Part shown: one piece after another, positions 1 through 59,870 of the stretch
Position numbering within the stretch: the stretch's first letter is position 1
How the letters are laid out: every line of letters begins with the position of its first letter
Origin: Owenia fusiformis
Lineage: Eukaryota > Annelida > Polychaeta > Sabellida > Oweniidae
Direction of reading: 5' to 3'
Length of the DNA: 64,000 bases
NCBI GenBank assembly: GCA_903813345.2
Contig: CAIIXF020000002.1
Span: 658,001 to 722,000, forward strand
Position numbers and translations under genes: made by a program
Notes under the pieces: generated by a model
What the model was told of the DNA's origin: nothing
The model's input: the letters and a program-made list of their open reading frames with translations, nothing else
The model's database searches: none

Positions 1-130
1 CTATCGCAATGTGGACATTGAAACTTCCTGGTTTTGGTTTCTTGATGGAGGTGTGGGGCTTGGAAGGTGATATCTCCATAACTGTTTGGCTGATCATATC
101 GATGTTTGAACAGCTGTGATTGGCTCATCC
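1..130 (-). CDS. Two-finger C2H2 terminal exon, copy 1 (cut by window edge)
   Basis: Minus-strand terminal exon truncated by the window start. The acceptor AG lies at 132-131; the exon opens with two nucleotides (GG) and then reads MSQSQLFKHRYDQPNSYGD and onward to the first finger, which breaks off after FQCPHCDR. It is nearly identical to the exons at 15840-16117 and 34181-34458, and one residue before the finger differs (QAP instead of QGP). The second finger and stop lie outside the window. It belongs to the series of alternative zinc-finger 3' ends described in the summary, and sits just upstream, on the other strand, of dehydrogenase copy A. Confidence 0.75.
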
Positions 131-1976
131 CTGAAACAAAATAAAAAAATATATTTTAAATTCATATATTCATGTGATACATTCATATAACAAAAGAAAA
201 TATATGTGGGCATCAACACTTTCAATGGATTACATAATGGCACATCATATTTACTACTCGTATGAAACTTTTTTAGTTCGGGCAAAATTTAAAAATCTCA
301 TATTTCAGAAAAATGCAAATTTCGGGATTATATTATGACCTACACGTATCAGTTGAAATTTGTCATGGTGTTTCTTTTCAGTAATTTTATGATTTCTCAA
401 TATGAGTTTTTAATACCACTTCATACATGTCATATATACTCTTGTAGCAGGTTTTTTCCTCCGCTTGAATGCTCATAATATACCGTATGCAAGGTTAAGA
501 AAATGTAAATAAGAACTCAGGGGCAAAGTGAAGTGATGACAAAGAAACCTACACAGAAAGTTGCACTTTTCTGGAAATTATGCAGCGGGCTTCAGGAATT
601 TACTTCACTTTGAAGCGATACATAAAGACATACATACATAAAGACTGCATTGAGATGTAGACACACCCCTTAGATATATTCTCGGTGAACACCTGTGATG
701 TTACTATTTATGTATACACATATTTTTTTCTTTTTTTGTGTTTTTTTCTGTTTAAAAATTAGTTTCAAAGTACCAAATTTACATATCATAAAAAAGCAAT
801 CACAAACAAAAATAAAGTACAGTTTAACAGTTTATGTTGAACACCTTTGACTTGTGAGGTGTTCCTTTTACAATTCAAGGATTACTTTTGCAATACGTTA
901 ATCGGGAGAGGTAGATCTAAAAGTGGTCGACTCTGGAGGTACGTGTATGTGTCCTGCTTTCAGAGCTAAAGGCATATCACTCAACATGTTTGCTGTAAGT
1001 ATATTCAAAATATGATTTATCTAATTACAGGTATATTAGTCTTAGGTTACAAAGATATAACAAAATTCCAACTAAAATACGTTTTTGTTTATTTATTATT
1101 GAATGCAGAATTAAGAACACAAATATGCTTGTATAACGATGATGCATTTTAATTACTCTAACTACAAGTTAATTTTACAAAAGTATAATAAGAAAACAAG
1201 TACTTACATTACTAATATCACATTAGATGGTGCTACTCTCTTAAGGATAGTAGCAAAATGACCTAAACTATAAATTTAAATCAATATTTCTGCCATTATA
1301 TTATTAAATTAAATTTGACATAAATTATAAAATCGAGGTCTTTGATCCGATTCTAATATGATAAACAAACAAGAAACACAACTATTTGCATATATGAATT
1401 TAAGCGGTCATACATACTCCAATATAGAACAGAAAATAAATTGTTCTAGCTATTGTGACATCACGTATCATATTAAAATATGAATTATATCAGTTGTCTC
1501 TGGAAACGGGGATACTAGTATATGGTATAAATCACAAGTTTAGACTTACTCAAAAACAAACCAAATATTTTTCTATTTATGTCCATGTTAATTGACCCTT
1601 TATTTAAGGAGCACCTGCCATCTGGGAACAAGGAAGACGGGTTTGTGGTGAATTTTGAAAATTCACTTATTCACAAAGAGCATTGATAATTGTTTACAAC
1701 TGACAGACTAAATTGTATCCTCTCCTACACTCTTTTGGTTATGCATTCTTTTCACAACCGATTTATGGGTCACTGGATGCTATTTAAATATGTAATGTTA
1801 AGTAAAACGTTTAGAAGTAAACCATTTAATGAATACAATAACTACCGTGATAAATTATCGCTTTACTTAAAAAGTTAAGTTTATCAGTAATGTAAGGTTT
1901 ATGAAAATTGCAAGTGTTTGAAAATTAAACATTTTTTGAAATCATCTTCGTATTTAATGGTCAGTGCATACCGACA
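131..1976. other. Non-coding: zinc-finger intron and 5' flank of dehydrogenase A
   Basis: About 1.8 kb of AT-rich sequence duplicated at 16118-17962 and, up to about position 1548, also at 34459-38523. Short ATG-less or poorly supported ORFs here (for example 1690-1878) are repeated unchanged in copy B only because the whole segment was duplicated. No clear TATA box or core promoter could be assigned. Position 1311-1316 holds the intact AAATTT that serves as the empty site for the MITE at 37443-37807. Confidence 0.6.
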
Positions 1977-4900
1977 ATGAAAATAGAGGGAAGCATTGCC
2001 GTGGTAACCGGAGGAGCTCGTGGAATAGGGAAATCGATAGTGACATCTCTACTCAAACTTGGAGCAAAAGTAAGTTCACGGTACTCTTGATGTTAGTTTG
2101 ATATGTACTCTGATAATTTCGAACCAGTATTAATTTAGGTTTCTAATAGTTTTTCTCTAAACATATTCTAGACCGGTGTAAAAGAAACTATGGTCCCCTG
2201 GGGATTATGGTCCCCTTTCTTAAAGGCCCCGATTGTGGATACGATAATAAGGGAAAGAGTTGTATTTAGGTCACCATATAAATCAATGGAAAGTAGGACC
2301 ATAATTTGATAGGACCTCCTACCCTTTTACACCGGTCCATATGGATCACCACTATGACGTCACACATTTCTAAGGTCGATATAGTAAAATAAATGCCTTC
2401 TAAACTAGCACTAAAACCCCTAGAACTGACCCGACAAGGTGGTAATAATGCCACAAGTCATATAAACATAAATGTAACATATGTAAGATGGGCGTGGAAG
2501 GACCGTGGGTGGCAAATAAAATATAACAGAAACCTATGATTTAAAATGTCTAAAAAGTCTATTTCAAAATCTGATACATATATCTCGTCAACAATTGACT
2601 AACTACCTGACTTACTGGGCAACACCCAAACTCAAATGAGTGAGTGTGTTTCACCATAGAAGGAATATAAAAGAATATAATATACGCAGAGTATGGACTA
2701 CAATAAAACAGGTTTTAAACAAAAGGTGAAGTGATTAGAGAGGTTAAGCTACACGTATTTAACAAAACTTGAACGTGAACTTCAATGCGCGCGCAGATAA
2801 ATGACGTCAGATTTGTTTATTTCCTGTGGGCCAGCGTGAAGTTTACAGGTTTTTACATGAGATTATCATATTCGTGCAATTTACAGACGCGTATTCAACA
2901 AAGCATGAACGTGTACTTCTATGCGCGCGCAGGAAAATGACGTCAGATTAGTCTACTTTCTTCAGGTAAGCGTGAAAGTTCCAGGTTTTTACGTGTAGAT
3001 GAGTGATTACACGTCGCTCATTACGTGATTGATTTTAGCTATGTTCTAGGATGGCCCTGGAGCCCATGTTTGACACAGACAATCTTGCTTGTTATATTGG
3101 TAAACCCCAATCCTTAATTGGAAATAAGAATACATTAAAATTGGTAAATGACAACTTGAAATGTGATCGCTTGTTCATTCCGTACAATATAAATTGACAA
3201 GACCAATTTGATGCCCGGGGCTTAGTACAATATGTAAACTAAACGAAATGAAATGACAACCAGGGCAAGAAAGGATCTAGTGTGCTATGATCTCCCCATG
3301 AACAAAAATAAATTCATCTGATTTTTCAAAAAAATATACTGCTTTTATTATTTCATTTATATGTACACTAGAATTCAGCACTGTATTGATGAATGGGCCA
3401 CTTATTAGGGCCAATATTCAATCATAAAGTGTACAGGGGTTGAGATGCCAAACCATGAAACCTTTTTGTGTCTTCCAAAATCCATTTGCATCCTACACAT
3501 CCCTACATCTTATCCAAATATGTTATTTATTAATGAAACATAACAGTATAATCTTTGTATTTACAAAGTTGTATGGGATTTCGTAAGTGTAAAAGTTGCT
3601 TTTGAAGCATTTTTCTATAGCCATTTTGTAGGAAAAAAATGATGAAAAATGATGAAAAAATGTATTATCTTTTAATTTGAAGTTTGACATGAATCGCTTG
3701 CAAACTTTTTATTTGCACATCTGATGTGATATACCATTTGTGTCATATTGTGAAATTATTTAATTTGCAATTAATTCAGGTCATAGTGTATTTTTAGGAA
3801 AATCAAACCAATGGCCTCCATCGGAATCTGATGGTATCAACATGTTAAGTCAATAGAACACATCCAATGCCAAGTCAATATACCCTTGCAGAACTTAATG
3901 ACCCCAATCTCAGCCAATGTGGGTCTAAACGCTTAAATATTTTTCAAAGTATTATGTGACATTGTATTCTTTATGATATACAGTTAAAAATGAATCATTT
4001 TGTTCATGGGGAAATCATAATGGAAAGTGCACTGGACCCTTCAATTGTGATTGAATATGAAATAAAAAAAATAAATAAATAAATGTTTTATTGCGACAAG
4101 ATTCGAACCCAGGCCTAACGGACATACGTGAAGTGCTAGATTGCCGAAGTGCTATCCATTACACCATACGGACATGACCTTTAGACACAGTCGCCACATA
4201 AATATAGCTCCACGTCCACTGACATGGTTTCAGACGTGTGGCTTAACTGAAAAGTTTCTTTAACGTGTACTTGAGCGTGGACTTACGCGTTCAGGTTCAC
4301 GGTTTGCATTTATACGTGTAGCTTAACCTCTCTAATAATATAAAGCACGTATATGTATGTATAAACAACGGGATTAACTGTTTGACATTGCCATAAAAGG
4401 TATTAAAAGGGACCCGTTAAAATGAGATGAAGGGATTGATCAACATAAAAATGACTGTGTTACATTCACCCGGACAACGTCTTGTTGCGTCCCGCATTAA
4501 CCAACTCGGCCATAAATAGAAAACATAAAGGATACGTATCAAAAACGATTAATTTAACTTAAATTTTAAGTAATTTTAAATTGTGTAATACATCTGTATA
4601 AAAATGAGCATATTCCTCCCCTAATAACATCGACGATGGTCAACATTATAAAGCAAATTCGAACCCCAGTTAATACATGTAATGTGTGACGTCATAACGG
4701 TGGATCGTAGGAATGGCAGACCATGATGAGTATTCGAAACAATTTGGTGAGTTTTCATATTCGAGTCGTAATATAGACCTCAGCGCAGGGGTAATATCAT
4801 CAAATACACTCCTTGGGGCTAGGCACAAAATCTTTCGAACCCCTCAGTCCCTTCGGTCGTTCGGGGTACAGAAAACGTTTGTGCCTAGCCCTGCGGGGTG

Positions 4901-7900
4901 TATTCGTCGATATTACCCATGCCTTTCGGTCTATATTTCTTACGTATAACATAATTCTAAAGCATAAAATATTGACTAAAATTAAAAGCCATTGCAGTTC
5001 CAAAAAAACGTATTAAGTAAAATCATTAAGGCTTAATTAACACCATGTGAGGCAAAATATAACACCATATAGGCTATTGTAACCATACTAGGCAAATATA
5101 CACCATATAGGCTAATGAATAAACATCAATTTAAGACAAATACACCATGAAAATTGATTGCTGAATAGGTTTGATTGGCACATTGTTGTAAAAGGCTAGT
5201 CACTAACAATATATGTATATCTGATGTCATGAAAGTCAATTGAAGATCAGTGAAGATAAAAGTTGTTCCAGATTATGATATTTTAGTAAATATGCATAAG
5301 TTGAAGAAGTTAATACACATATATCTTGTAGTTGTAGGTCATGACATATCACATACTAGTATATAAATCAAACATCAAATTTGTGATGATTTGGTGTCTT
5401 TCCTTTCCGAAATAGATGTTTTCCTAATTGTTTCCATAAAGTTGAAGATTCAGTTGGTCCCACTCTAGTTAACATTTGATCCAATTTTTCTTGCTGCGTT
5501 TTTATCACTGTTTTGTAATTCAATTGTTTCTGATCGTTCCTTGAGTTGATTCTTATTATCAATGATCGTATTAGGATGTTTATCACAAGAAGCTGTCAAT
5601 GAATATATTCTCACCTCAGAATCTGTCAGATCTGATTTCAGTTTAGAGATGGTTTTATCATCCCTAGTTGTTCGATCAGAATATTCCAATAAGTCCTTTG
5701 TAATTCTTGGATCTGTTTGTCTTGAGCTTTAATTACCGCTAAAATGTTAACGTTCTGTGATTGTAGGGTCTGGATGCGTTCTTTGTATATTCGATTGCCA
5801 TTCTTCTGTCCATATAATTCACTCCCTTTGTGTTTGTAGTTGTCAATGTTGTATTTATAAATATCAATGTTTACAGTTGTTGTTTCGCAATGTTTATTAT
5901 GTTGCTTTGGTTGCTCATTTGATTTTAAAAGTTTTGCTTGTGGTGAAGCAGACTTGGTTGATTTTACAAAATGTTGCTGAATTGTTGGGCATTCCTGGTG
6001 ATCTCTATCACGGTGTCCATATATTTTGCATTTTGAACAAAAATCCCTTAAAAGGTTCACACTGTCGCTTGGTGTTGTTTACAGATTTACAAAACCAACA
6101 TCGTTTCACAAATGAGGTACATTTCGTTGCGACTTCCATTTTAGAAAGTATATTATTGTTTCAAACGAACAATAATATAGCTGAGCTCTAATGTATGTCA
6201 CTGTCGAATATCCCAAATGTTCAAGAATATTTTCCTACAGTCAAAACAGTAATGTTTGTGAGTACTTTGAATTTAAAAAATAAGCAATCAAATGACCATA
6301 TTGAAACAGTTTATGTAAAAATAGAAACATTTATATTTATCCTAACTTTTGTATCTTTGTGTCTCTGTACCCAACTTGACCAATTGTGCTAGTTTATATA
6401 ACATCTCAGAGCTATTTCACAAGATTTTACTAAGAAGAGAGTTTCTTTGTCAATCTTGACAGGTGCTTCAAAATTTAAGATGCATACCATCCTTTAAAAT
6501 CATTAATACTCTCATGGTTCCATTCCACAATTTTACTATACTTCCTGACTGCCCCCCCCCCGACTCCCCCGGTTACCATTGCAACTATGATATGTACTCA
6601 AAATCTTAATTTTGTTATGAAACATACCAATTTTCAGCCAAATTCATAAAAATCTTTTTGAATTAGAATAAAAATTGCAAGACTTATAGGACAACCTTCG
6701 TATATGCTAAAAATATATAGCAAAACACAGGAAACTGTTTTTATATGGTCAATATTAAGGAACAGTATAAAATAACACGCATAAAATGCTTGTCATTTTT
6801 CAAAATGGGCACTCACAAGCTAGCCAATTTATAAGAAAATGTAAAATGCTTCTAATATATCACATTTTAATTTCATCAAAATTTTATGTTAATATATTTT
6901 CTCAAGAATACAAACATTTAAATTATTTTTCAAAACTTGATAGGTATGCAGTGTTGATGTAAACAATGCGGATGGTGAAAAAACAGTTGAAGACTTGAAG
7001 CAAATTTACGGAGACAGTGTGATATTTCAAAAATGTGACATCACAAAGGAAAATGAAGTCAGAAGTAAGATAAATGTTTCACTTTTTTTTGCACTCTGAT
7101 TAAAATTTTATACAACAAAAACATCCAATACATATATTACAGTGGCGGATCCAGGAATCAACGGGGGGGGGGGGGGGCAAAAATAAAAACTTCCGCCCAA
7201 AAAATTTTTGTGTCCTTTATTTAAGAATTTGGGCCCAAATTTTCAAAATATTATGGACCGACCAAACATTTTTGGGCCCTAATTTTCTTAATTTGGGCCT
7301 AAATCACAAAATTGAAGGCCAAACTTTTAACATTACATGTTGCATCGTCCTCTTGAACGTTGGGGACCAACAAAATCTAAATCTAAATCGACGTTTATCT
7401 GCAAATATCTACACAAAATAACCAAAACAAATGGATGACAACATCGTCTAGAATGTTCCCCTGCACTATAGCCTAATTAATAGAAGCTTACCAGATCCTG
7501 GCTAGTGGGAAATCACAACAGGTAGTGTTGGAAGGTGAATCAAGTTCAAAAACTCCAGTAAAATCAGGAGTTCCTCAAGGAACAGTTCTTGGACCACTCT
7601 ATTTCCTTGATTATATCAATGATATTGGGCAATAACCTATCATTCACAGCCAGTCTTAAGCTATTTGCAGACGACAGCTTTTTATTCATGACAGTCAAAA
7701 GCAAGCAAGATATATAAACACTACAGGAGAATCTTTATAAACTGGTCTCCTGGGTATCAACATGGCAAACGAAATTCCATCCATCATAATTATCACAAAG
7801 GTAAATCCCCTATCATTCACAATTACACAATGCTAGTGGAAAACCTTAAGTCGGTAACACACATCCCATACCTAGGTATTTACATCACAAATAACTTACG

Positions 7901-10900
7901 CTAGACTACACATATTCAAACTATTGTATCAGAAGCCAATAAGGTGCTTGGATTTCTCAGGCACAACCTTCATCAATGCCCTTAAAAGTGAAGGCTCGGG
8001 CGTATAACACCCCAGTCACATTTGTCGTACGGCGGCCGTAAGTCGACTGCAGATCAATTAAATCAGTGAATTTCTGCGGCGAGCCCGCCTTGCAGTCTCC
8101 GTGCGGCGTATCCAGTTTTTTACAGGCCGCAGGGAGGGCGTAGAAATTATAACTCTAACTTATAATATTTGTTCATTTCTGAAGTCCCCGTTGCTAGACC
8201 ACAGAACAGTCCCACGGTGGCCGCACGTTGACTTGCGCATGCCGTAGTGTTTTGATGCGTCATATACATTTGGAAACAGTTTGCTGTCTTATGTTTGCTC
8301 TGAACACAGCGTAATAGGTATGCTGTTTGACGTATTACCATAGCAACCTATACTACAAAAGATTAAGTTACTAATGGTCAATGTAACATTCAGCACTTTC
8401 TATTTGATACTATAAACTAGCACTGTAAATGACATTTATGAATTGCACTACTGTAAATACATTAAAAATAAACAGTAACGTTTATCGATAGAAATTCAAA
8501 ATTCGCCATGCGGCTGCCGCAGGAAATGTTACTGTAAAAGTATCCGACTGCAGAAATTCCACGGAGAGCATAGAAATGTTACTGGCCGCAGAAATGACAG
8601 ACCGCACGGTCATCGTAGGAAATGTGACTGGGATGTTAGTCACTAGTCCGGCCTAATTTAGAGTATGCCAGTTCGGCATGGGATCCATACCGACAAAAAG
8701 ATATTGATATGTTGGAACAGGTACAAAAAAGAGCAGCCAGGTTTGTAACCAAATGTCACTCAAGGGAACCAGGCTGCGTCACCAAAGCTCTTCAAGACCT
8801 ACAGTGGGAGCCACTGAAGGAGCGTCGAGAGGCTGCTAGTGTTTTCCTTTTCTACAAAGGAAAGCAGAACCTAGCAGCCATCGACGTGCCTCCATACTTC
8901 CGCCAACAGATCAATACCAACACTAGGTTTTATCATCCTCCTAAGTTCATACAACCATCAACTAGAACGGATGCATACAAATTTAGCTATTTCTTTAGGA
9001 CAATAGCTAAATGGAACACTCTACCTGGTGACATCTTAGACTGTGACAGTCTAAGTAATTTTAAATCAACATACTATAGACTACTATATGCCTATGTCAA
9101 TAACTGCAACTAAATAGGTGTGTTTTTAATATAGATCTATGTTTTAATGTAAAAAGTTCCCAGTGCACAGCAACAAGCCTGCACTACTGGTAAAGAGGGG
9201 TGGTGTCAACGCGGTAGCCTGACAGTCGCCCCAGGGTATTTCAACATAAAGGGACTTCCTAGGGGGGTACAGGGGCCAACCAGGAAAGTTCCTTTCAATT
9301 TTAATGAGTTGTAAACCATAGATCTATTTCTAAATGTTAAGGTTTTAAATTATATTCTATTCAAATTCTATCACTGTTAAATTATATATCTGCTTTATAT
9401 GGGCTTATTAGCCTTTTGATGTCAATTAGATTATTGACATCATAGGCATAGACAAATCTTACCGATTGCTTCTTATGGACTGCATTTTAAAAAATCTATC
9501 TGACCGGAAGTTGAAAGAACCAATGAGAATCCCCGGTTCATGGTACGTAGTTAGTCCAGTGCAACCAACTACCTTTCTGTTTCCGGTGTTGATGATTCAG
9601 TGACATTGTTATTCTATTTAACAATTAGTAGGGGCGACGTCAATTTGGGCATTGAATAAACTTATTAACAACCAAAAATCCATTTAGGGTCCGGAATCAA
9701 AACTTATAGGGGCCTGGTTTCATTTGTTCAGGGCCCAGAATGCAAACCAAGGACCCAACTTTTGTATTGCCATTTCTTGGGCCCCACGCTCCCCCCCCCC
9801 CTTGACCCGCCACTGTATTATAAAGTAAATAAAGCTTGACATCTAGTAAACCGTGTGACATATTGAATAACATAAATGTTAACTATTTTAATGCGTTTGT
9901 CGGGTTTTTACCATAAAATAATATAAATATCTACAGCATAGATTGGTTTGGTTAAACTTGGTAGTTTTTTCCGGACAGTTTGATAAATTGCGCAAAAGTC
10001 ATAATTATGTACAACATAAAATTACAATGTTTCCGTTAACGATCCCTTTATAATTGTATATAAGCAATGCAAATCTTCTTTGTAGATGCACTAAAGGTTG
10101 CGAAAGACACACTTGGTGACGTCACGATAATGGTGAACAACGCAGGAATCATGGATGAACATAATATATCTTGCACTATTGCAATCAACCTAGTAAGTTA
10201 TTCAAAGAATTATAAACAGTTAAAAACAATTGATTATCAATTAATTCTAGAACACTGCACAGCCATGCAAAAATAGGGCTGTAGTAGCTTCATGTTGATT
10301 CTTAAAATACTCAAAACCGTTTATTGATCGCAGGACTAAATAATTATTAAGAACCATTTACATTGTGTTTGGAAATATAAACATTCATATATGTGTCTAG
10401 AAATCATTTGAAGAATAAAATTCGATGTTGATATTGCAAAATGTGTATCATTTTTTGTTTAGGAGGCCCAGATACGATGTACAATGATTGCACTGGAGTT
10501 CATGGGTCGCAACAATGGGGGAAACGGAGGTGTTGTGGTATTTACCTCTTCAGTAGCCGGTAAGCTTTGGTTCAGAAGTTACAAGGATCAAGATATCCAA
10601 TAGTTGATATTGATGTCCAAATGGGCTGCTTGATGATTTCTAGTAAGAATTTATGGGTCGCAGCAATGGAGAGGAAACTGGCGCCAATGCGTCATAGTAT
10701 ACCGACTTCGTCATCTAAATACTAGAACTTGAGATCACATTTACAATTTAACTAAAACCCGACTGACTAACTACTGAGAATAATATTCCAGGTCTAACAC
10801 CATTTGGGGGAGTGTCAGCGTATGTTACATCGAAACATGGACTTGTCGGCTTCGTTCGTAGTATGGCGGTAAGTTGTAATTCTTGAAGTACACACCTTTC

Positions 10901-13900
10901 TAAATGCAGGCTCCATGTAAACTGTCCACATGCCAGTGAAATTCAGACTCGTTGGCTTCGTTTATAGTATGGTGGAGAGTAGTGCATTTTCTAAATGCAT
11001 GCCCTGTACGCTCTTTGTACACTGTCATTACCTACTTATACAGCAGCGACCATTGACTTGTTAGCTCCGTTCGTAGTTCGCATCATTAAAGATATTGATA
11101 AAAAAAAATAACAAAGAATGTATGTCTTTTGCATAACAGCATCGTGTTCCCTCAACTATATATTTTCGATATACATATGTTGATATTGTTTTTCTTTAGT
11201 TGAGTCCAAGGATTAACGATTGGGGTGTACGATTCAATTGTGTTTGTCCAACCCCGGTAGATACACCAATGATGAGCACAGATTACTTACGTAAAGTATT
11301 GCATCCAGATGATTTTACTTCGTCCGTGGAAATTGTAGAACAGTTCAGGAAAACGAACACTATGCTACAGTAAGACAGTACTGCATACTTAAACTTTATT
11401 AAATGTAAAAATGATTTGTTATTCAATGTAATGGTGTTATGGTTCACCCCTTCGAGTTTAATGCATCACTTAATTGCATAAGAACTCAGTGTTTGAATAT
11501 CCATTCATATATGTTGAGTGAAACTTGTTTTTATGCATGACCAAAGGTGATTAGATGACTTTGGAAGTTAGAGTTGAGACACTGAAGAAGTAACAGTAAA
11601 ATGTGCAATAACACACTACCCTACCACGTGACGACGTTTAAAAGGGAAACAGGGTACAGCTTAGTTGCAAATGGAGCACGTGGGTTTAATTCCATATTTC
11701 TGAACGTAAAATACATTTTAGATTTATTTCTAGTGTTCTACCAGACATAGAATTGATTCATCAAGCAGTGCGTAGAATATTGTTGGAAAAAACCACTATA
11801 GGCAAAGATAGATAATAGTGGGCGCAGTGAAGCAAAACACGAATGCAATACACGATACATTTCAGTAAATCTATCAACGTACAGGGAGCATGTACGTTTC
11901 CCTTCGAAAATGTTACATTGATATGTAACAAAAAAACCAGTTAACTGTTATTTAAACTGCGTGTCATCGTGTTATAGGTGGATACGTTTTCTAGTATGTT
12001 AGTCAACTGTATTTTTGTGAATTTGAATAAAACATTTTGAATGATCGGTTTTTGAGGACGGTAGTGAATTAGACCATTCAAGGGGTTCTATAGAAAGATT
12101 CTTCACATGTAGTTCAGGCAATTTTAATTTTTCTGAGTAGCAGATAGTCATTAATACTGAGAGCGGATAGTCATTTATCATTAACGTGTTAATATTTAAT
12201 TTCGTTATTTTATTTCAATTTGATACCTTAGTAACACGTATAATCTAGCGTTTTTGTTAATTTAATGACTAAAATGCATACGACCTGAAAGGCCGTGTCT
12301 AAATCTACAAAATAATGTTTACTTTATTTGGATTAAATAACAATTGATGACACCTCAAAGCATCAACAGGCGGCCTTTTTAGCATTACTTTCACTGTTTG
12401 CAACGTAAATGTACATGAGGTCGGGACATAGTATGTCTGTATAATCAGCTTACTTTCTCGCTCCCTGTACTATTGAACAATTTACATTCCTTGTACCCTG
12501 TATTGATCAACTTTTGCAACTGTGTACCGTGTACTATGACATATCAAATATTTTAAAATATAAAACGATATTATTTACATTCTTTCTTCAACTATCATAT
12601 ACTAGTAACTTGGAACATGGACTTCACTATTGCACCACTGAAGTGTAGCGAATAGCAATATTGACTCACTCCGAGCACCAAACGTATTAACCTTTTGACT
12701 AAGCAGTCGATATACTCAAAAGCGACCTGGTTGAAAGCCAAAAGATTCGCGAATGCGCGATCGAGGTAGGGTAGTGTGAATAAAAACCAAATATATAAGC
12801 ACTAGTGCCAAAGGGAAAGGACCAGAAGTTGTAATGGAACTTTGCAAGAAAAAGCAAACTCTAAGTGCATACCAGTTAGGAAAAAACAAACCCCATATAG
12901 CCCAAAACCATGATCTAACATGAAAAGAAACAATGTCTAATACCCAAGAAATATAAGTTGATTTTAGAAAGAAAGTAAAGTTTTATGTATTTATTTATGC
13001 ATGGGACACTTTTGCTCCGATTCATCAGTCGGCGCCCACCCGATTGAGTATTTAGTTCTAAATTGTATACAATTTGGACAAGAACACTCAATCGGCCGGG
13101 CGCCGACCGATGAATCGGAGCAAATGTGACCCAGGCATTATCATGAGGTGATTAGATACCTTTCAACATCTCTACATTCACATATAACAGATGTTGAGAC
13201 TCTAAATATTAACCTCTACTCCATTTTCCCTGAACTCTTCTGGTTTTAAAGTGCTATGAAAGTTAACAGGAAATGACAAAACAGGAAGTGACAATTTTTT
13301 TGCATTTTCAGACATTTTTTGAACAAAGATAACAGAGTTCTGTTTTGACCTCCAGTCAATTCAACTTGTTTCAAATAACATTTACAGGTCCAGGGTCACA
13401 ATGTTCATGGCCAGAATAACCCTAAACATGATGAAATAACTTTTTCAGCCCTATGAAAATGTGACTGAAAATAGCTAAAAATATGAGGTTGGAAAGGTCA
13501 CAGGACAGAAAATGTGCCCAATATATTGCTCTAAATTATACAATCTTTGAAAATTTGATATCATTCTGAGAGGACCCTGGGGCAATAGTTAAATAATAAC
13601 AATCAAATCACAGGGGAAATACGTTTAACTAAAAACAAAATCAGGGCCGTCAGTTAATGGGGGAAAAGTAAACAAATAACAATTGGTAGCGTGACAAGTA
13701 AATATGGGGGCAAATGAAATAGATACAATAACAATGAATGGTAGCGTGGAAATTTGGAAAGTAAATTGGAATAAGCGTAATTTAAATCAATGGTAGCGTG
13801 GAAGTTAAAATAGTTAAATTAAAGTGAATGTTCAATTTATATGAAAGGGCACTAAAGTGTATAATATGAAATAAATTAAGAAACAAATAGATTAAAGTTT

Positions 13901-15276
13901 AATAAATCTATTGTAATCAAAATAATACTCAAATATACTAGCACAAATAAAGAATATCAGTACAAATACAATATTACAAAAACACACCAGAATACATTAA
14001 GTGGCTTACCCATTGTCACTGTCGTTTCCTTTGTTCAATGATATCCAACATGTTTTAGCTTATGTCTAAAAATGTGTAGAAACCAAGTGTTCCAGTCAAG
14101 GTCTGGTGTAAAAGTGTCTCTTGACCAAAGGAAACAGACAGTTTATATTCTAAAAGTTGCCAAATTACCATATTATTGTACCCCACCTGGCCCTGGGACC
14201 AGGCACTGAACAAAGGGATGATTCTTACAGCTAAGGGATTATCTAAGAAAGCCAGACTGTAACTAATTGTCTATTCAAAAAGTTTGAATAGAGTTCACTT
14301 GGTTCAGACTAAAGCTCTGCTATAGCAGCAGCATATAGACTGTACTGAATGAACAGGTCAAAGGGTCACAAAGTACAATGCAAAACTTTATGAAGGAAAA
14401 ATGTGAAACGAAAATGTAATTTTAAATATTAAAACATGGAAATAACATTGCTATAATTAAAACTAAATATAATACATTGATATTAAGAAGGATTTAACAC
14501 GATGACAAGTGATCAGAAAACAAGGGTATACCACCTTTGATCACGGGTCATCACAATTCATAGAAAAAGAAAAAAATGAAAAAACTGATTTGAAAAGTGA
14601 TCTATTTTCCTTTTTATGACCATTTTTGTTTAAGACAATTTTCTAAAATTTCAAAGATTGTATCAGTTAGAGCATTATATTGGGCACATTTTCTGAAAAA
14701 TTCTGAAAAATGTATAAATGTGGAAATAGTTAAATTGACTGGAGGTCAAACCAGAACTCTGTTATCTTTGTTCAAAAAATGTCTAAAAATGCAACCTTTT
14801 TTGTCACTTCCTGTTTCGTCATTTCCTGTTAACTTCCATGGCACCTTAATTGAGCGTGTAGGCTACTATAACACCATCATGAGAAATTTTTCTTTTTCTC
14901 AGTCATTTCGCATATATTGCCAATGTTCACTTGATGTAATATACTATTTGGTTTGAATTATCAATGATCTAAAGGTTGGTTAGTGATATGTACTGTTACG
15001 TCGATTGTTTCCCGTGTAGTCTAGAGTCACATTTGATTTGATTGCTTTATTGTTGCTATTGAAGAAATATATTGAATGTTATACGAACTTGATCAGCATC
15101 GTCATCATGATATTTATTGCTTAACAATATGACTTAGCCATACATGTTTTTGCAGGCCATCTGAAGTAGCTGATGCGATGATTAAGCTGATAGAAGATGA
15201 CACATTGAATGGAGCGTCATTATTAGTTACGAAGGGCAAAACAATCTTAGTCGATCCACCAGCCTTGGACATATAA
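1977..15276 (+). CDS. Short-chain dehydrogenase, 15-PGDH-like, copy A (7 exons)
   Basis: Exons 1977-2069, 6944-7064, 10086-10192, 10463-10559, 10792-10868, 11200-11369 and 15156-15276, all with GT..AG borders and matching phases, give 786 nt and a 261-aa protein (human 15-hydroxyprostaglandin dehydrogenase: 266 aa). Visible classical SDR motifs: TGGARGIG (residues 11-18, dinucleotide loop), D36 at the end of strand 2 favouring NAD over NADP, NNAG (89-92), S137 in TSSVAG, and YVTSK with Y150 and K154. The catalytic spacing is one residue off the human enzyme (S138, Y151, K155). Expected role: cytosolic NAD-dependent oxidation of a hydroxy-lipid or related alcohol; the actual substrate is not readable. 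The start is the first ATG ahead of the Rossmann strand. Introns 1 and 2 are swollen by transposons. The gene lies opposite to the zinc-finger transcript. Family assignment is strong, prostaglandin specificity is inference. Confidence 0.9.
2171..2337. mobile_element. 167-bp MITE with 14-bp terminal inverted repeats
   Basis: The ends GACCGGTGTAAAAG and CTTTTACACCGGTC are perfect inverted repeats. The copy at 18157-18323 shows that it predates the duplication; a related, opposite-orientation remnant lies at about 44912-45010. It lies in dehydrogenase intron 1 and has no coding content. Confidence 0.8.
2735..4335. mobile_element. 1.6-kb TIR element present only in copy A
   Basis: Inserted into intron 1 of copy A. 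Ends are inverted repeats of about 22 bp beginning TTAGAGAGGTTAAGC. The equivalent spot in copy B (about 18720-18721) is empty. Near the left end a unit of about 136 bp with GCGCGCGCAG and TGACGTCAGATT is repeated twice (about 2753 and 2889). No transposase ORF is visible, so it is non-autonomous. A tRNA-like SINE fragment lies near its right end. A clean target duplication could not be read. Confidence 0.8.
4091..4180 (-). repeat. tRNA-derived SINE-like fragment
   Basis: Minus strand carries an A-box-like TGGTGTAATGGATAGCA and a B-box GGTTCGAATCT (plus-strand positions 4099-4109), spaced as in a tRNA promoter, followed by an AT-rich (ATTT)n-like tail. The acceptor and T stems do not pair properly, so this is a tRNA-related SINE head or pseudo-tRNA, not a working tRNA gene. 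It sits inside the 1.6-kb insertion. Confidence 0.5.
4767..4944. mobile_element. Foldback/palindromic MITE, copy A
   Basis: Two arms of roughly 75-85 bp are inverted copies (for example GGGGCTAGGCACAAA against TTTGTGCCTAGCCCTGCG, and GGGTAATATC against GATATTACCC). The overlapping short ORFs on both strands here are products of the palindrome. The same element lies at 19159-19336. Confidence 0.75.
5368..6170 (-). pseudogene. Frameshifted zinc-knuckle/coiled-coil coding remnant
   Basis: Minus strand, inside intron 1 of dehydrogenase A. An ATG at about 6140 begins [20 protein letters not shown]; this frame soon stops. Another frame continues with [18 protein letters not shown], a Cys/His cluster resembling a zinc knuckle, and then a Lys/Glu/Gln-rich coiled-coil-like tail ending near HHKFDV at 5368. 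At least three overlapping frames must be chained, so the sequence is broken and probably dead. I do not recognise the parent family; a transposon-linked nucleic-acid-binding protein is possible. Copy B keeps only the 3' third. Confidence 0.5.
6944..7064 (+). CDS. Dehydrogenase A exon 2 (marker exon)
   Basis: Listed separately because it defines cofactor preference and divides the transposon-rich introns 1 and 2. It opens [18 protein letters not shown], with the Asp (D36) after strand beta-2 that usually binds the adenosine ribose of NAD. AG at 6942-6943 and GTAAGA after 7064. In copy B the exon (20297-20417) carries K44E and D55Y. Confidence 0.88.
7495..9113 (+). pseudogene. LINE reverse-transcriptase fragment, copy A
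   Basis: Contains the RT motif region [11 protein letters not shown] followed by a frameshifted FADDS block, then, after a MITE insertion at 8011-8632, the typical RT C-terminus ([10 protein letters not shown], then [19 protein letters not shown] and WNTLPGDIL), ending at a stop at 9111-9113. The 5' endonuclease and most of the palm are missing, and stops break the first part. It resembles Jockey/CR1-type elements in style; the clade is not settled. It is more decayed than copy B. Confidence 0.8.
8011..8632. mobile_element. MITE inside the LINE fragment, copy A
   Basis: Terminal inverted repeats CCCAGTCACATTT and AAATGTGACTGGG. The interior is GC-richer than its surroundings (GGCGGCCGTAAG, CTGCAG). 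It splits the LINE C-terminal coding region between AYNT and LVTSLVRP. Copy B (21413-21941) lacks about 95 internal bp. Confidence 0.75.
10945..11085 (+). repeat. Decayed duplicates of the exon 5 end in intron 5
   Basis: The last part of exon 5 (GGCTTCGTTCGTAGTATGGC at about 10848) recurs in degenerate form at about 10950 (GGCTTCGTTTATAGTATGG) and 11065 (AGCTCCGTTCGTAGTTCGC), a period of roughly 105 bp. The later copies have lost the GTAAGT donor. Copy B shows the same pattern, so it predates the duplication. Confidence 0.55.
13011..13124. repeat. Short palindromic element, copy A
   Basis: TTTGCTCCGATTCATCAGTC pairs with the inverted GACCGATGAATCGGAGCAAA across a loop of about 40 bp. It could form a strong hairpin. 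An identical-looking copy lies at 31354-31467 in intron 6 of dehydrogenase B. Confidence 0.75.
13259..14836. repeat. 1.6-kb element with ~105-bp inverted arms, copy A
   Basis: The arm at 13259-13364 (AGTTAACAGGAAATGACA, then AACAAAGATAACAGAGTTCT) is inverted at 14733-14836. The interior has three GGTAGCGTG repeats near 13686-13802. The ORF at 14597-14956 lies across the right arm and has no recognisable domain, so it is not called as a gene. Copy B: about 31603-33178. Confidence 0.6.
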
Positions 15277-15839: not shown

Positions 15840-16117
15840 CTAATTTTTCAGTTTATGGTACTGCCTGATGTGTCTTCTCTTTGTTGACAATTGTGTAAAG
15901 CCTTTCCTACAGATCTCACACGTATATGGTTTTTCTCCAGTGTGAGAATTAAGGTGATCTTTTAGGTGCAGGCCCGCTTTAAAAGATCTATCGCAATGTG
16001 GACATTGAAACTTCCTGGTTTTGGTTTCTTGATGGAGGTGTGGGCCTTGGAAGGTGATATCTCCATAACTGTTTGGCTGATCATGTAGATGTTTAAACAG
16101 CTGTGATTGGCTCATCC
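15840..16117 (-). CDS. Two-finger C2H2 terminal exon, copy 2
   Basis: Acceptor TTTCAG at the right, then GG + MSQSQLFKHLHDQ and onward. Finger 1 CPHCDRSFKAGLHLKDHLNSH, canonical linker TGEKPY, finger 2 CEICRKGFTQLSTKRRHIRQYH, then KLKN and a TAG at 15842-15840. The spacing is CX2CX12HX3H and CX2CX12HX4H. Length 278 nt (2 + 92 codons), so it needs an upstream exon that supplies one nucleotide; the BEN exon donor at 58567 fits. The fingers read as identical to copy 3 (34181-34458); only the linker differs (HLHD against HRYD). Likely nuclear, sequence-specific DNA binding. It could instead be the last exon of a separate local gene, but no local 5' exon is evident. Confidence 0.8.
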
Positions 16118-34180: not shown

Positions 34181-34458
34181 CTAGTTTTTCAGTTTATGGT
34201 ACTGCCGGATGTGTCTTCTCTTTGTTGATAATTGTGTAAAGCCTTTCCTACAGATCTCACACGTATATGGTTTTTCTCCAGTGTGAGAATTAAGGTGATC
34301 TTTTAGGTGCAGACCCGCTTTAAAAGATCTATCGCAATGTGGACATTGAAACTTCCTGGTTTTGGTTTCTTGATGGAGGTGTGGGCCTTGGAAGGTGATA
34401 TCTCCATAACTGTTTGGCTGATCATATCGATGTTTAAACAGCTGAGATTGGCTCATCC
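34181..34458 (-). CDS. Two-finger C2H2 terminal exon, copy 3
   Basis: Acceptor TTTCAG then GG + MSQSQLFKHRYDQ and onward. The two fingers (CPHCDRSFKAGLHLKDHLNSH and CEICRKGFTQLSTKRRHIRQYH) are the same as in 15840-16117, and a TAG ends the frame at 34181. 278 nt, same phase. The linker (HRYD) matches the cut copy at 1-130 better than copy 2 does, hinting at conversion or at the order of duplication. No dehydrogenase follows in this third unit. Confidence 0.8.
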
Positions 34459-37807: not shown

Positions 37808-37977
37808 TTTGACATAAATCATAAAATCGAGGTCTTTGTTCCGATTCTAATATGATAAAAACATACAAGAAACACAACCATTTGCAATTATGAATTTAGG
37901 CTCCAATATAGAACAGAAAGTCAATTGTTCTAGCTATTGTGACATCATGTATCATATTAAAATTAAGGAATAAAGAC

Positions 37978-38930: not shown

Positions 38931-39247
38931 TTATGGTTGTGTCTTTTTCACTGTACTAATACGTATTCCATGTACTCTCTTTAAATGCATTTGCTTATGC
39001 ATAGTCGAAGCAAATCTCTTGAGGCAGATCTCACATTTGTATGGTTTTGCCCCAGTATGCATGTTAATATGGGCGTCAAGGTGAGACTGCTGCCTGTACT
39101 TCTTGTCACATAAAAGACATGGATAACTGTAGTTATACTTCCAGACTTTTTTCGTCCTCCCTTCTGTTTGGTAATCTGATGCGTTGTTTTGCCTTCTTGA
39201 TTTTTTGGCAGCTTTCTTTGGTCTACCTCGACCTCGTCGTTTCTTTC
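38931..39247 (-). CDS. AT-hook plus two-finger C2H2 terminal exon
   Basis: Acceptor TTTTTGCAG, then GA + KKRRGRGRPKKAAKKSRR, an AT-hook-like basic stretch with the GRP core. Next come finger 1 CLLCDKKYRQQSHLDAHINMH, linker TGAKPY, finger 2 CEICLKRFASTMHKQMHLKRVH, and the tail RISTVKKTQP with TAA at 38933-38931. 317 nt = 2 + 105 codons, the common module phase. It is closely related to the exon at 45871-46142 and to the broken one near 41.1 kb. The AT hook would add minor-groove binding and nuclear retention. Confidence 0.82.
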
Positions 39248-41075: not shown

Positions 41076-41340
41076 TTATGGTTGTGTCTTTTTCACTGTT
41101 CTCGTGTGCATTCCATGTACTCTCTTTAAATGTCTTTGCCTATCTATACACGAACAAAATCTTCTCAGCCATATCTCGCATTTGTATGGGTTTGCCCCAG
41201 TATGCATGTTAATATGGGCATCCAAACGAGGCTGCTGTCTGTACTTTTTGTCACATAAAACATGGCTACTGCCAGTACTATGGTAGCCAGTTCTGGGAAT
41301 TTGGGAAACCTTTATTTTGTTGTTTATCACCTGTGACCTC
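41076..41340 (-). pseudogene. Decayed two-finger C2H2 terminal exon
   Basis: Clearly a relative of 38931-39247: LCDKKYRQQPRLDAHINMH, linker TGANPY, then KCEIWLRRFCSCIDRQRH and the same tail VKKTQP. The first Cys of finger 1 is gone (HVLC instead of PCLLC), and the second Cys of finger 2 is Trp (CEIW). The AT-hook part is missing, and the only plausible AG upstream would enter in the wrong phase for the shared donor. Neither finger should bind zinc. Best read as a dead module. Confidence 0.75.
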
Positions 41341-41494
41341 ACGAGGTGCAGACGATCAAAAACACACAACAGTACAAATGTTCCATGCAAACATTATTTA
41401 TGAAGTAGTTAGTCACTAGAGAGTTTAAGATATATATATTTAAGATACATATTTTTCAGAACGTAACCGTGAAAGCAAAGCCAATGAATCAAAA

Positions 41495-45870: not shown

Positions 45871-46142
45871 TTATGACGGTTTCTTCTTAGAGAGTATACC
45901 ATGTACTTTCTTTCGATGAATTTGCCTATCTGCAGTGGAACAAAAGGTTTTCAGACATATCTCACATTTGTATGGTCTGGCCCCAGTGTGCATGTTTATA
46001 TGGGCATCAAGCCGGGACTGCTGTCTAAACTTCTTGTCACATAAAAGACAAGGAAAACTGAAGCTATATTTCTGTACTCTCTTTGTATTCTCTTTCCTTG
46101 ATGCTTTGTCAGCTAGTCTTGGTCTGCCTCGTGGTTTCTTAC
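45871..46142 (-). CDS. AT-hook-like plus two-finger C2H2 terminal exon
   Basis: Acceptor CTTGCAG, then GT + KKPRGRPRLADKASRKE, with the AT-hook core RGRPR. Then finger 1 CLLCDKKFRQQSRLDAHINMH, linker TGARPY, finger 2 CEICLKTFCSTADRQIHRKKVH, and a tail ending SKKKPS with TAA at 45873-45871. 272 nt = 2 + 90 codons, same phase as the other modules. A paralogue of 38931-39247; the main differences are in the finger helices, so targets may differ. Confidence 0.82.
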
Positions 46143-48888: not shown

Positions 48889-49256
48889 TTAGAGCTTATT
48901 TATTTTCCTGGACTTGCTTGTTGCAACCCGATGAACATTCCGAAGATGCAAATTCAGACTGGATGACTGAGTAAATCCTTTCAAACAGAATGTGCACTTA
49001 TATGGTCTATTGCCTGTATGAACATTCATGTGTACTTTCAAATGTGAGCTTGAGCCCATCTTCTTATGGCAGATTTCACATTCATAACCAAACTGACTTT
49101 TAGATTTTGCTATCCTGGTTTCATTGTTGCGGATTCGAGAATTATTCATTGTTTCTGCTGATGTTACACCAGAAGTCCATCTTCTTGTCAGCGCAGAGTA
49201 AGCTGGTTGAATCTTGCAAGTGCTGTCTCCAACGCTGCCTCCATCATATAGATATT
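48889..49256 (-). CDS. Two-finger C2H2 terminal exon
   Basis: The coding exon extends right of its first ATG. After the acceptor (GATTTCAG, 49259-49257) come AA and then YLYDGGSVGDSTCKIQPAYS and further open sequence to the fingers. Finger 1 CEICHKKMGSSSHLKVHMNVH, linker TGNRPY, finger 2 CTFCLKGFTQSSSLNLHLRNVH, basic tail KSRKINKL, TAA at 48891-48889. 368 nt = 2 + 122 codons, the common phase. Closest to 49866-50212 (FTQ(S/T)SSLNLH in finger 2), its neighbour and likely tandem duplicate. Confidence 0.82.
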
Positions 49257-49865: not shown

Positions 49866-50212
49866 CTAATCTTGTTTTCTACAATTGTTTCCTCTCTTTA
49901 CTATGTCCACATTTAATTGATGCACTCTCCGCTGATGTAAATTCAAGCTTGAAGTTTGTGTGAATCCTTTTAGACACAGTGGGCATTTGAACGGTTTCTC
50001 ACCAGTGTGAACATTTTTGTGATTATTTAGATGGGTGATCGAAATAAACTTTTTTCCGCAGATATCACATGACCACTTTGTTTTTCTCTGCTTAGCACTT
50101 TCATGTCTTTCATAAATACTTTCATATGGTTCCTTGTTGAATCTGATATTGGTGTTTGTAGAGTTTTGATATTCCCCTGACTCAACTTTAATATATCCAG
50201 ATGTGTAGACTG
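49866..50212 (-). CDS. Two-finger C2H2 terminal exon
   Basis: Acceptor GATTTCAG, then CA + VYTSGYIKVESGEYQN, a polar linker, finger 1 CDICGKKFISITHLNNHKNVH, linker TGEKPF, finger 2 CPLCLKGFTQTSSLNLHQRRVH, tail NNCRKQD, TAG at 49868-49866. 347 nt = 2 + 115 codons. IKVE in the linker resembles a SUMO-attachment site (psi-K-x-E); that is a guess from a four-residue motif. Same phase as its sister exons. Confidence 0.83.
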
Positions 50213-51258: not shown

Positions 51259-51549
51259 TTAAAAGGGAATATCAAGCATATCATCAAATTTTTTGCACTT
51301 CTTCATGTGTCTGTCAAGTGATCCTTTATAGCCATATACCACGTGGCAAAAAGGACATTCAAATTTAATATGTTCATGTTTGGCCTGTATGTGTCTTCTC
51401 ATATTATTCGGAAGAAACACTCCATCACAATGTCTACATTTGAGACTCTCTTTGTCCTTCTCCTCCGAATGCTTCATTAATATGTGTTGATGAAGACTTT
51501 CACTCGTTCTGTACTGTCTGGAACACTTGTCACACTCATATTCTTTATG
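51259..51549 (-). CDS. Multi-finger module, last exon (fingers 3-5)
   Basis: Acceptor CTTCCAG at right, opens HKEYECDKCSRQYRTSE. Three fingers: CDKC..HILMKH, CRHC..HIQAKH, and CPFC..HMKKC (a C2HC variant). Ends DDMLDIPF with a stop at 51259. 291 nt in phase 0, joining the previous exon (51796-51959), which ends SSHTN, so that the linker SSHTNHKEYEC spans the splice. The finger sequences are less uniform than in the two-finger exons. Confidence 0.83.
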   Translation of the reverse strand, partial: HKEYECDKCSRQYRTSESLHQHILMKHSEEKDKESLKCRHCDGVFLPNNMRRHIQAKHEHIKFECPFCHVVYGYKGSLDRHMKKCKKFDDMLDIPF

Positions 51550-51795
51550 CTGGAAGCAAATTTAGTGATTTAAATAATGACATTCATAATAGTCGATCTA
51601 ATATATCTCACCTTATCCACATCTGAAATATTTCAATTCTATAACTGAAACTTTTCATATTTTTTCTACTCTCAAGTGGGTGCAATTAAATTCTAAATTG
51701 GGTGAAAATTTTGTTTGACATGTTGACTGGTTGCAATTCATTTGTAATTTAATCCATAGAGAGATCATTGGAGTGATCCTTTAAACTGGTCTTAC

Positions 51796-51959
51796 ATTTG
51801 TATGAGATGATTTATGAGCTACGTATCTTTCATGTCTCTGGAAAGCCTTTCCACAGCCATCAACTGTACATGTAAACTTTGCTTTCCCTCCGTGTTTGAG
51901 AACGATGTGATCGCATAGTCCACTCTTTGACAAGAATGGCTTACCACAAAATGAACACA
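51796..51959 (-). CDS. Multi-finger module, middle exon (fingers 1-2)
   Basis: Acceptor TTGTAG, then TG + CSFCGKPFLSKSGLCDHIVL; the next finger is CTVDGCGKAFQRHERYVAHK (CX4C type). Donor GTAAGA after HTN. 164 nt = 2 + 54 codons. Its entry phase fits the preceding exon 52266-52361 (one T left over) and would also fit the shared donor directly, so the first exon might be skipped. Confidence 0.82.
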
Positions 51960-52265
51960 CTACAATAAGACAGCATAACTATTAGTCATTTACATGTAGG
52001 CAAAGTTTAGTGTTTTGTTTAAAATTATTGTGTAAAATATTGCATCTAAATTATGCCAATTTAACTAACATTAACCATATTGAAACAAAACATATGGAAA
52101 CCTCCTTCAAAAGTTTGAAAGCACCAACTCTGAATCTAAATAAATATCTTTTTAGTTTTCAAGAGAACATAAATGAGTTAAATCTATTCAATCAAATATC
52201 ATTAAGCCTCAACAACTATTCTTATGCTTTAGGGGTTAGGGTAAGGGGAATAAAAATCAACTTAC

Positions 52266-52361
52266 AATTAGCATGTTTTTTGTGACCTGCTTTCGATTTA
52301 ACCAGTGCTTTGGATAGAGTTGCTTTCGTAATGGAGTCCTTTGGCAAAAATCTGTGTTTTT
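52266..52361 (-). CDS. Multi-finger module, first exon (basic linker)
   Basis: Acceptor ATTTTCAG then AA + KHRFLPKDSITKATLSKALV, basic, ends KKHAN plus one nucleotide before GTAAGT. 96 nt = 2 + 31 codons + 1. No finger; it forms the linker between the shared body and the five fingers. The phase at both ends is consistent, which supports it as a real exon. Confidence 0.7.
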
Positions 52362-54105: not shown

Positions 54106-54580
54106 TCACTTGTGCTCTTTTCTCTTGTGTTTTGAAAGCATTCCTCTGTACGCAAATTTTTTACCACATACTTTGCAAGTATAGACAGGAATCTCTGGAG
54201 AATGTTTAAATTTTATGTGTTCTTTTAGGTACCGTTTCGACTTAAAAGCTTTTCCGCATTCATGGCATTTGGCATCCCTAGCTGTCTTTCCACACAAGTC
54301 TTTGTGTTCTCTAAGACTTCTAGCGTGGGCAAACTTCTTGGGGCACTTTGGACATTTAAATTTTAAATTCATATGCATCATCTGGTGATCTATAAAGACG
54401 TTTTTGTATGAGAAGCCCTTCCCACATATGTCACAGAAATGACTATAGTTGCCAGTGTGTTCAGCTTCGTGTCTCCTAAGTCCAAGTAATGTCTTGTAAG
54501 TCTTGCCACAAGTTGAGCACTGTATGCTTCCTGGAGTGTCTATACAACTGTGTTGGTCAAGTGCACTCTTTTGCCCAAAA
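54106..54580 (-). CDS. Seven-finger module, second exon
   Basis: Acceptor TATTTCAG, then T + FGQKSALDQHSC, which completes the finger begun in the previous exon. Then CSTCGKTYKTLLGLRRHEAEH, CDICGKGFSYKNVFIDHQMMH, CPKCPKKFAHARSLREHKDLC (C2HC), CHECGKAFKSKRYLKEHIKFKH and CVCGKKFAYRGMLSKHKR-type fingers (the last reads CKVCGKKF). Stop at 54106. 475 nt = 1 + 158 codons. Most proximal and largest finger set in the series. Confidence 0.85.
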
Positions 54581-54867
54581 CTGAAATAAGCAAATCAAGA
54601 TTATTCAAAAGTACAAAATAATTCGTATCAAATATTTCCACTCAAAAACTTAATGAGAGACAATGTATAATTAAACACATGTCCTTTCTAGAAGATAAAT
54701 GTCATATCCTGATACTGAGATTTTGCCAGTTAAATTGAGTCCAACACTTAAGAAGATAGTCACTCATTCCAACTAAATTTAATTTTCCAATTCCTCATTC
54801 TATGAATATTAACAGAATAAATAAAACTGACACCATATGTCACTACAATTATCAAATTTTGACTAAC

Positions 54868-55144
54868 CATTTTCCACAATTATGACACACATATCTTTTA
54901 GAGTGGGTATGTTTGTGTCTGTATGCTGTCCACATTTTCTCCGTTTTGAAGTTGCAGGCTGAGCATGCAAAAACCTGTTTATCGTTTGCCACAGATTTTA
55001 TTATTTTTGGCAGAACATCATTGTCTGGTTTTTCCAACTCTATCGGTTGTTCAAGAACATTATGAGCTACTATGTTCTTTTGTTTGTCACTGTTAATAGA
55101 CTTCAGCCAAACGCCATCAGGGTCATTACATGCACTCACAATAT
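54868..55144 (-). CDS. Seven-finger module, first exon
   Basis: Acceptor CATTCCAG, then AT + IVSACNDPDGVWLKSINSDK, an acidic/polar linker, then finger CSACNFKTEKMWTAYRHKHTH and the start of the next (CHNCGK). The donor GTTAGT splits that finger. 277 nt = 2 + 91 codons + 2. Entry phase fits the shared BEN donor. Loosely conserved donor (GTTAGT). Confidence 0.8.
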
Positions 55145-57917: not shown

Positions 57918-58021
57918 TTAGTCTACCAATCCAATTTTTTTAATAATGTTCCTATTCGCTGCAACTTTTTCATTAAAGATTCTCGTAAAATTGTTGTAAT
58001 GTAGTATTGTTTCTGTGTAGC
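57918..58021 (-). CDS. Candidate fingerless terminal exon
   Basis: Next to the BEN exon: pyrimidine tract and TATTTTCAG, then GC + YTETILHYNNFTRIFNEKVA and onward to LVD and TAA (57920-57918). 104 nt = 2 + 34 codons, again the shared phase. If used, it would end the protein after the BEN region without zinc fingers. No homology recognised, and such a short ORF could be chance (34 codons). Confidence 0.35.
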
Positions 58022-58566: not shown

Positions 58567-58831
58567 CCTTGACTGCTAGTAGAATAGGTCCTTTCTTTTT
58601 GTCTTTGGTGTAGAATCCCAATCCACCTTTTCCACTCAACTCTTCTGGCTCAAACAACCCATCCAGAAGTGCCCTACAGATCTTACCTGGATCTGCAGGA
58701 CACTCTTGTCTGGATTGCTTTTTCGTCTTTGATTGTATCAGAATTTGTGCAAGCCAAGCTTTAGGAACTGCTACATCCATATGTTGAACTAGTCTCATCC
58801 ATTCTGGTTTTGGCAATTCATCTTTTGAGAG
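58567..58831 (-). CDS. Shared exon: probable BEN domain
   Basis: Acceptor GTTTAG, opens LSKDELPKPEWMRLVQHMDV, then KICRALLDGLFEPEELSGKG, which resembles the first half of a BEN domain (helix with L-L-x2-L-F, then EEL and a Gly), ends GPILLAVK plus one G before GTAACT. 265 nt, 88 codons + 1. BEN domains bind DNA or mediate chromatin contacts and often follow a coiled coil, as here. The second half of the domain is not obvious in this exon, so the assignment is tentative. This donor is the common partner of all the terminal modules. Confidence 0.62.
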
Positions 58832-59289: not shown

Positions 59290-59375
59290 CATTACTGGAT
59301 GGCACAGTGGAAGTGGACTCCTCGTCTTCGGTCTATATCTCCTCTCCCTTAATGTGTTCTCTCTTTCCGAAACCT
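59290..59375 (-). CDS. Shared exon: basic linker
   Basis: Acceptor TTTCATAG, reads (E)VSERENTLRERRYRPKTRS and ends LCHPVM before GTAGGT. 86 nt; one nucleotide from the previous exon plus 86 gives 29 codons, so it leaves phase 0 for the BEN exon. Arg-rich, possibly nuclear localisation. Confidence 0.65.
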
Positions 59376-59780
59376 CTATGAAACACAATAACAAGAAAAT
59401 GTTATCATTTTCATAAATAATATAGCTTTTACATTTTATTTATCATGTACTTCTTGATAACCATTTAAATCATGTTTGAATAATTGCATGACAATTTCAA
59501 CAGCAATTCAACAGTACTCAATATTTAAAGTTACTTTGGCTAAAAAATGAGATACATATATTCTTTTAAATAAAAATATCTTGAAATGAGGAGGGTTACT
59601 TTCTTTAACCTAATAACAAAAATGTGAGAAGGGAAGATCAAAATATTACAGTCTACTAGTATATACCATGTTTCTCACTGCCTGAATTAAAAAAAAACAG
59701 AACTGAATTTCAGATTTTCAAGGTTGAGAAGTATGGTATTACTTATGGTAGCTATGAATAAGATAAGAATTCTTGGTTAC

Positions 59781-59870
59781 CTTCACTTGAACTGCCTGTT
59801 TGCTTTTGGCTTTGTCTTAGTATCTGATTCTCTCTGTCAAGAGAACTTATTCGGGCAAGTAAGCTCTGAA
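59781..59870 (-). CDS. Shared exon: coiled coil
   Basis: Acceptor TTATTTCAG, TT + QSLLARISSLDRENQILRQS, with heptad spacing of L/I (L-L-I-L-I-L), then polar QKQTGSSSE and donor GTAACC. 90 nt. Likely dimerisation segment. It needs one nucleotide from an earlier exon, which I could not find in 59871-64000, so the 5' end of the gene is probably outside the window. Confidence 0.68.

Follow-up and report, generated by a model that had tools for sequence, protein, structure and literature searches.

A candidate lola-like row of alternative zinc-finger 3' ends behind an orphan protein body in the annelid Owenia fusiformis

Can a gene outside the arthropods supply one protein body to a whole row of exchangeable zinc-finger endings? 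This question is raised by a minus-strand locus in a 64,000-nucleotide stretch of the genome of the annelid Owenia fusiformis (assembly GCA_903813345.2, contig CAIIXF020000002.1, positions 658,001 to 722,000 of the forward strand; this whole stretch is called the window, and positions are given in its numbering). In the cited passages on the Drosophila gene lola, 17 of its 20 isoforms are reported to differ in their C-terminal C2H2 fingers, and the TTK-type BTB body, found in both lola and mod(mdg4), is reported only in Arthropoda, by a search that included Annelida (PMC11426971). The corresponding passages on mod(mdg4) describe a constant set of exons to which one out of many alternative 3' exons is joined (PMC12692577, PMC4667647). 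For the Owenia locus, we favor, with a probability of about 0.6, the reading that a phase-1 donor at 58567 would be spliced to one of several terminal exons, forming a lola-like cassette with an orphan body.

The shared part of the gene is anchored by a public protein. A protein search with the shared exons and a finger end as the query found an NCBI 'unnamed protein product, partial' of Owenia fusiformis of 180 amino acids (here P0001), which is identical to the three shared exons and the coding part of the finger-less ending joined on the minus strand (Table 1). P0001 is 5'-partial and begins at the first exon visible in the window. Because of this identity, the donor 58567 and its phase belong to a public gene model; a previous sequence-only reading had proposed shared minus-strand exons with a phase-1 donor at this position, and its exon reading equals the start of P0001. 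That reading also listed the ends of the gene. Its eight complete finger ends stand, but it overlooked the finger-less end at 58021, which has the same phase and is the only end with a public model. The part of PMC9977687 that describes the Owenia genome annotation names RNA sequencing (RNA-seq) junctions, Mikado, Augustus and PASA, gives RNA-seq support for 31,678 of 31,903 transcripts, and states that 5,779 repeat-overlapping models were discarded; we infer that P0001 stems from this gene set.

Downstream of the shared exons lie nine complete alternative endings, eight with zinc fingers and one (58021) without, and besides these one dead ending and one finger ending that the left edge of the window truncates. 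The finger endings are named A to I by their acceptors (Table 1), and the inventory agrees with the nine intact or window-cut modules and one dead module described from the sequence. Unlike in that description, A and B consist of more than one exon. Each of the eight complete finger endings has at least one exon above the Pfam cut-off for PF00096 (25.2 bits; range 27.3 to 81.9), and the Pfam scan of the cut ending I covered a frame other than its finger frame. Compared with F, the dead ending has lost one metal-binding cysteine from each finger. All 23 matches to the C2H2 pattern are on the minus strand, 22 of them inside endings and one outside (63900). The predicted DNA-contact residues vary between ending families and are the same set in G and H. 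The acceptor of E (46142, minus strand) reads TTGCAG/GTAAGA and would recreate a donor once spliced, as at recursive splice sites.

Table 1. Positions of the shared exons, the endings and the tandem units in the window
Feature	Coordinates	Strand	Remarks
Shared exon 1	59781..59870	-	phase-1 acceptor and phase-1 donor; identical to P0001 from residue 1 on
Shared exon 2, basic linker	59290..59375	-	phase-0 donor; matches P0001
Shared exon 3, orphan region (BEN in the sequence-only reading)	58567..58831	-	last common donor, phase 1; matches P0001
Finger-less ending	57918..58021	-	coding 58021-57921, stop 57920-57918; strong acceptor (score 5.04); phase 1
Ending A (acceptor 55144)	54106..55144	-	exons 55144-54868 and 54580-54106; 6 C2H2 motif matches; zf-C2H2 81.9 bits in exon 2
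Ending B (acceptor 52361)	51259..52361	-	exons 52361-52266, 51959-51796 and 51549-51259; 5 finger motifs; zf-C2H2 27.3 and 37.7 bits
Ending C (acceptor 50212)	49866..50212	-	one exon, 2 fingers; 42.8 bits
Ending D (acceptor 49256)	48889..49256	-	one exon, 2 fingers; 39.1 bits
Ending E (acceptor 46142)	45871..46142	-	one exon, 2 fingers; 35.2 bits; AT-hook-like start (Pfam E 0.056, below cut-off)
Ending F (acceptor 39247)	38931..39247	-	one exon, 2 fingers; 33.8 bits; basic AT-hook-like start by eye
Ending G (acceptor 34458)	34181..34458	-	one exon, 2 fingers; 34.8 bits; tandem copy of H
Ending H (acceptor 16117)	15840..16117	-	one exon, 2 fingers; 35.4 bits
Ending I (cut at base 1)	1..130	-	cut by window edge, acceptor at 130; third copy of G/H; 130 visible bases in frame
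Dead ending, relative of F	41076..41393	-	12.5 bits
Two tandem units	about 1-15987 and 15988-34328		boundaries set arbitrarily; the first letter of the window falls within a unit

Joined to donor 58567, all eight complete finger endings keep the frame open until a stop of their own, and the visible body plus ending amounts to 396, 329, 261, 268, 236, 251, 238 and 238 amino acids for A to H. By a simple score, the phase-1 acceptor is the top-scoring AG of its frame in six of the eight. As a description and not a blind test, since the acceptor score cut-off (2.8) and the 85-codon limit were fixed after the scores of the endings were known, these frames can be compared with chance. Among 116 strong AGs of the minus strand, a frame of at least 85 codons was opened eight times in the required phase (seven endings, with 50212 counted also as 50209) and four times and once in the other phases; one of the four is the third exon of B, and F occurs in two phases. 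The 124 strong AGs of the plus strand gave four openings in the same phase and one and two in the others. If phases were free, the probability that all six ending families (the 58021 end included) have phase 1 would be 0.0014; however, the endings are few independent witnesses, because paralogues keep their phase by descent. Furthermore, A and E have no methionine anywhere in frame ahead of the fingers and therefore must join an upstream coding sequence, and in B, C and F a methionine is present before the acceptor and absent after it. AATAAA or ATTAAA is found at most 303 bases from the scan start in each of the eight finger endings, and a polyadenylation (poly(A)) signal lies at 635 from the scan start at the 58021 end, where the scan was begun about 20 bases too early; such signals carry no weight, because they are too common in A+T-rich DNA.

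Besides the small number of independent witnesses, several observations weigh against a common donor at 58567. The acceptor of A ranks third, close behind two others, and that of C (50212) scores below 50294 and 50209; thus, of the earlier claim that each module starts in phase 1 and ends in its own stop, the frames hold, but the acceptors quoted at 55144 and 50212 are not the top AGs. Endings D, G and H have a methionine after the acceptor. When nine acceptors were tested for docking-type pairing with the last common intron, the pairing was no stronger than at 150 control places (0.21 to 1.0 of the controls paired equally strongly). G and H are 97.5% identical in the exon, hardly more than in their flanks (96.2%). 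No protein joining 58567 to a finger exon was found in protein-database searches. The lola-like plan proposed from the sequence is borne out in layout and frames at the DNA level, but in the one public protein found, 58567 is joined to 58021.

Because exon 1 likewise ends in a phase-1 donor (59781), splicing from 58567 is not obligatory for the finger ends. In the public model, 59781 and 58567 are the phase-1 donors within the window, and the phase-1 acceptor at 59870 implies a third phase-1 donor upstream. The finger ends could belong to the same gene and be spliced from 59781 or from an exon beyond the upstream edge of the window, with exons 2 and 3 left out; the finger proteins would then share only the N-terminal part with P0001, and exon 3 would remain intact together with its 58021 partner. 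This arrangement gains from the common phase of donor 59781 and acceptor 59870 and would not sever the exon 3 region from its 58021 continuation. However, 58567 is the last donor before all ends, and the public model joins it to a terminal exon of the same AG-plus-two type; we consider the use of another donor distinctly unlikely.

The database matches bear on a different explanation, in which several separate zinc-finger genes, each with a promoter and first exons of its own, would have the finger ends as their last exons, and the 58021 model would be a small separate neighbour. A search with pieces of seven of the eight complete endings (H was omitted as a near copy of G) identified, among 85 candidates, four proteins that are readings of D, C, A (first exon) and F. 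These single-exon finger readings of the window speak for separate genes, as do the wide spacing of the ends on the left and the fact that the sole public protein found with the body ends at 58021. Nevertheless, only 610 bases lie between the stop of C and the acceptor of D, and A to D fall within 7 kb, which leaves little room for first exons of their own; in addition, one phase is common to all ends. Separate genes therefore seem unlikely to us.

Comparison of related endings suggests that the fingers are maintained. Between G and H there are 7 changes in 278 bases, five synonymous and two nonsynonymous (ratio of nonsynonymous to synonymous rates, dN/dS, 0.09, P 0.004), and both nonsynonymous changes sit ahead of the fingers. 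For E and F, dN/dS is 0.15 (P 8e-5), and for C and D, dN is 0.25 with dS saturated. By this measure, the finger codons of the tested pairs (G/H, E/F) are under purifying selection. It could be proposed that a zinc-finger gene was duplicated and that the finger exons are its decaying copies, which give no product, as one copy is dead and the left half of the window is rich in repeats, with a long terminal repeat (LTR) element. The eight complete frames with intact acceptors and the low dN/dS in G/H and E/F make such decay highly improbable, although low dN/dS alone is no proof of present use, because the dead copy compared with F still gives 0.27 (P 0.02). Either the dead copy may have decayed recently, or the constraint may come from its partner F.

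The endings are related to each other to different degrees. In the two-finger block, E and F have 39 of 50 residues in common and C and D 33 of 50, and other pairs have 20 to 24; G, H and I are tandem copies located in the copies of a larger unit. The two tandem units (1-15987 and 15988-34328) align in blocks that are 94.2 to 98.4% identical, and each unit carries insertions; an older partial copy lies at 34329-38521 (82.9 to 88.3% identity).

Taken together, strand, phase, acceptors, selection and the lack of start codons are best read as a lola-like plan. A minus-strand gene would join its shared 5' exons to one chosen terminal exon that has a phase-1 acceptor and carries its own stop, the choices being the finger-less end at 58021 or at least nine zinc-finger ends further downstream; the finger junctions, and a separate poly(A) site for each end, are putative. 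Use of the first end would give a finger-less protein, and reading past it would give finger proteins. The shared part may provide all products with the same partner or effector surface, and the DNA address may come from the chosen end, as in Drosophila lola. Because all ends are on one strand, ordinary cis splicing would suffice; trans-splicing would be possible and is not required. New ends may have been produced by exon duplication together with tandem duplication of 16-18 kb units.

What, then, is the shared body? The sequence-only reading placed a BEN domain in the shared exons. Neither the body nor P0001, whole or cut to its last 122 residues, matched Pfam BEN (PF10523) in searches at E up to 1 and up to 10; shared exon 3 alone matched no Pfam family up to E 1, and sequence searches of the PDB with the body gave only matches with E above 1. 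At E up to 10, the 104 candidates contained no relative of the body other than P0001 (proteins of 99-315 amino acids; longer ones would be missed), and a search with the body plus end C gave P0001 and 39 proteins with zinc-finger Pfam domains whose matches cover no more than 35% of the query (candidates of 143-457 amino acids; longer ones missed). The single-sequence structure model of the body (mean predicted local distance difference test score, pLDDT, 41) is too poor to judge a five-helix BEN fold, and a fold search with this low-confidence model gave 12 matches, none at E 0.001 or less. The BEN label has neither Pfam, PDB nor protein-database support and is dropped for now. BTB was likewise not matched in the visible shared exons (the window ends at 64000 and P0001 is 5'-partial). 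Shared exon 1 is helical with leucine-zipper-like spacing (L3-I7-L10-N14-L17), and its heptad count is not above that of shuffled sequence (a fraction of 0.41 of 20,000 shuffles reach it).

By eye only, the order of short helices in the body, the last of which is in the 58021 exon, recalls BEN proteins such as NACC1, BANP, BEND3 and Insensitive, from which the body differs in lacking the database matches mentioned above. In solved BEN domains, as described in the relevant passage of PMC11472053, the last helix, alpha5, reads DNA. If the body is BEN-like, one may speculate that a finger end would swap the DNA-reading helix for fingers.

At the level of DNA, the Owenia locus resembles lola, as described in the cited passages, in its shared 5' exons and many alternative C2H2-finger 3' ends, whereas the lola body is a TTK-type BTB and the part of the Owenia body that lies in the window is an orphan with no BTB match. 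It resembles mod(mdg4) in its common exons and the choice among many 3' exons, but the ends of mod(mdg4) are FLYWCH, some on the opposite strand and trans-spliced, and those of Owenia are C2H2 and all on one strand. Among the open-licence papers listed, judged by their titles and the opening of their abstracts, no BEN-bodied, spiralian or non-arthropod counterpart was found, which is weak evidence of absence. Tentatively, an annelid lola-like locus could have arisen independently of insects and without BTB, with an orphan body joined to one of at least ten ends; the first end would complete the C-terminal helix of the body, a finger end would replace that helix by a DNA address, and the 16-18 kb duplication would still be adding ends. 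The repertoire may therefore differ between individuals if tandem duplication is ongoing.

Other elements of the window are as follows. The LTR retrotransposon (23345-28385, plus strand) is present in the second tandem unit only, has a pair of identical repeats of 174 bases and a target duplication of 5 bases (TCCGT), and contains long frames at 23798-26998 and 26938-28020 that are gypsy-like by eye. Short-chain dehydrogenase-like exons are on the plus strand at 1977 and 10121 in the first unit and at 17963, 20306 and 28474 in the second (Pfam adh_short E 0.00097 and 0.028, both under the cut-off); later exons were not found. Since the exons seen are on the plus strand, a transcript that extends to H would run through them in the antisense direction. 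A 349-base tandem repeat (41542-42180, 1.8 copies at 90%) has inverted relatives at 44.4-44.8 kb. An 18-base tandem repeat at 61108-61201 is HTGE-like on the minus strand, similar to finger linkers, and a 133-base tandem repeat is at 62107-62608. A Cys-rich tail at 63984-63799 (minus strand) resembles the end of a piggyBac-type transposase.

The locus suggests that standard annotation can shrink such an arrangement to one finger-less gene. If our reading is true, the near-identical tandem copies would let the birth of new ends be watched, and a non-arthropod case with another body would make the row of exchangeable terminal exons a convergent route to many transcription factors from one gene. 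In Owenia, one gene may thus make a whole set of different gene-switch proteins.

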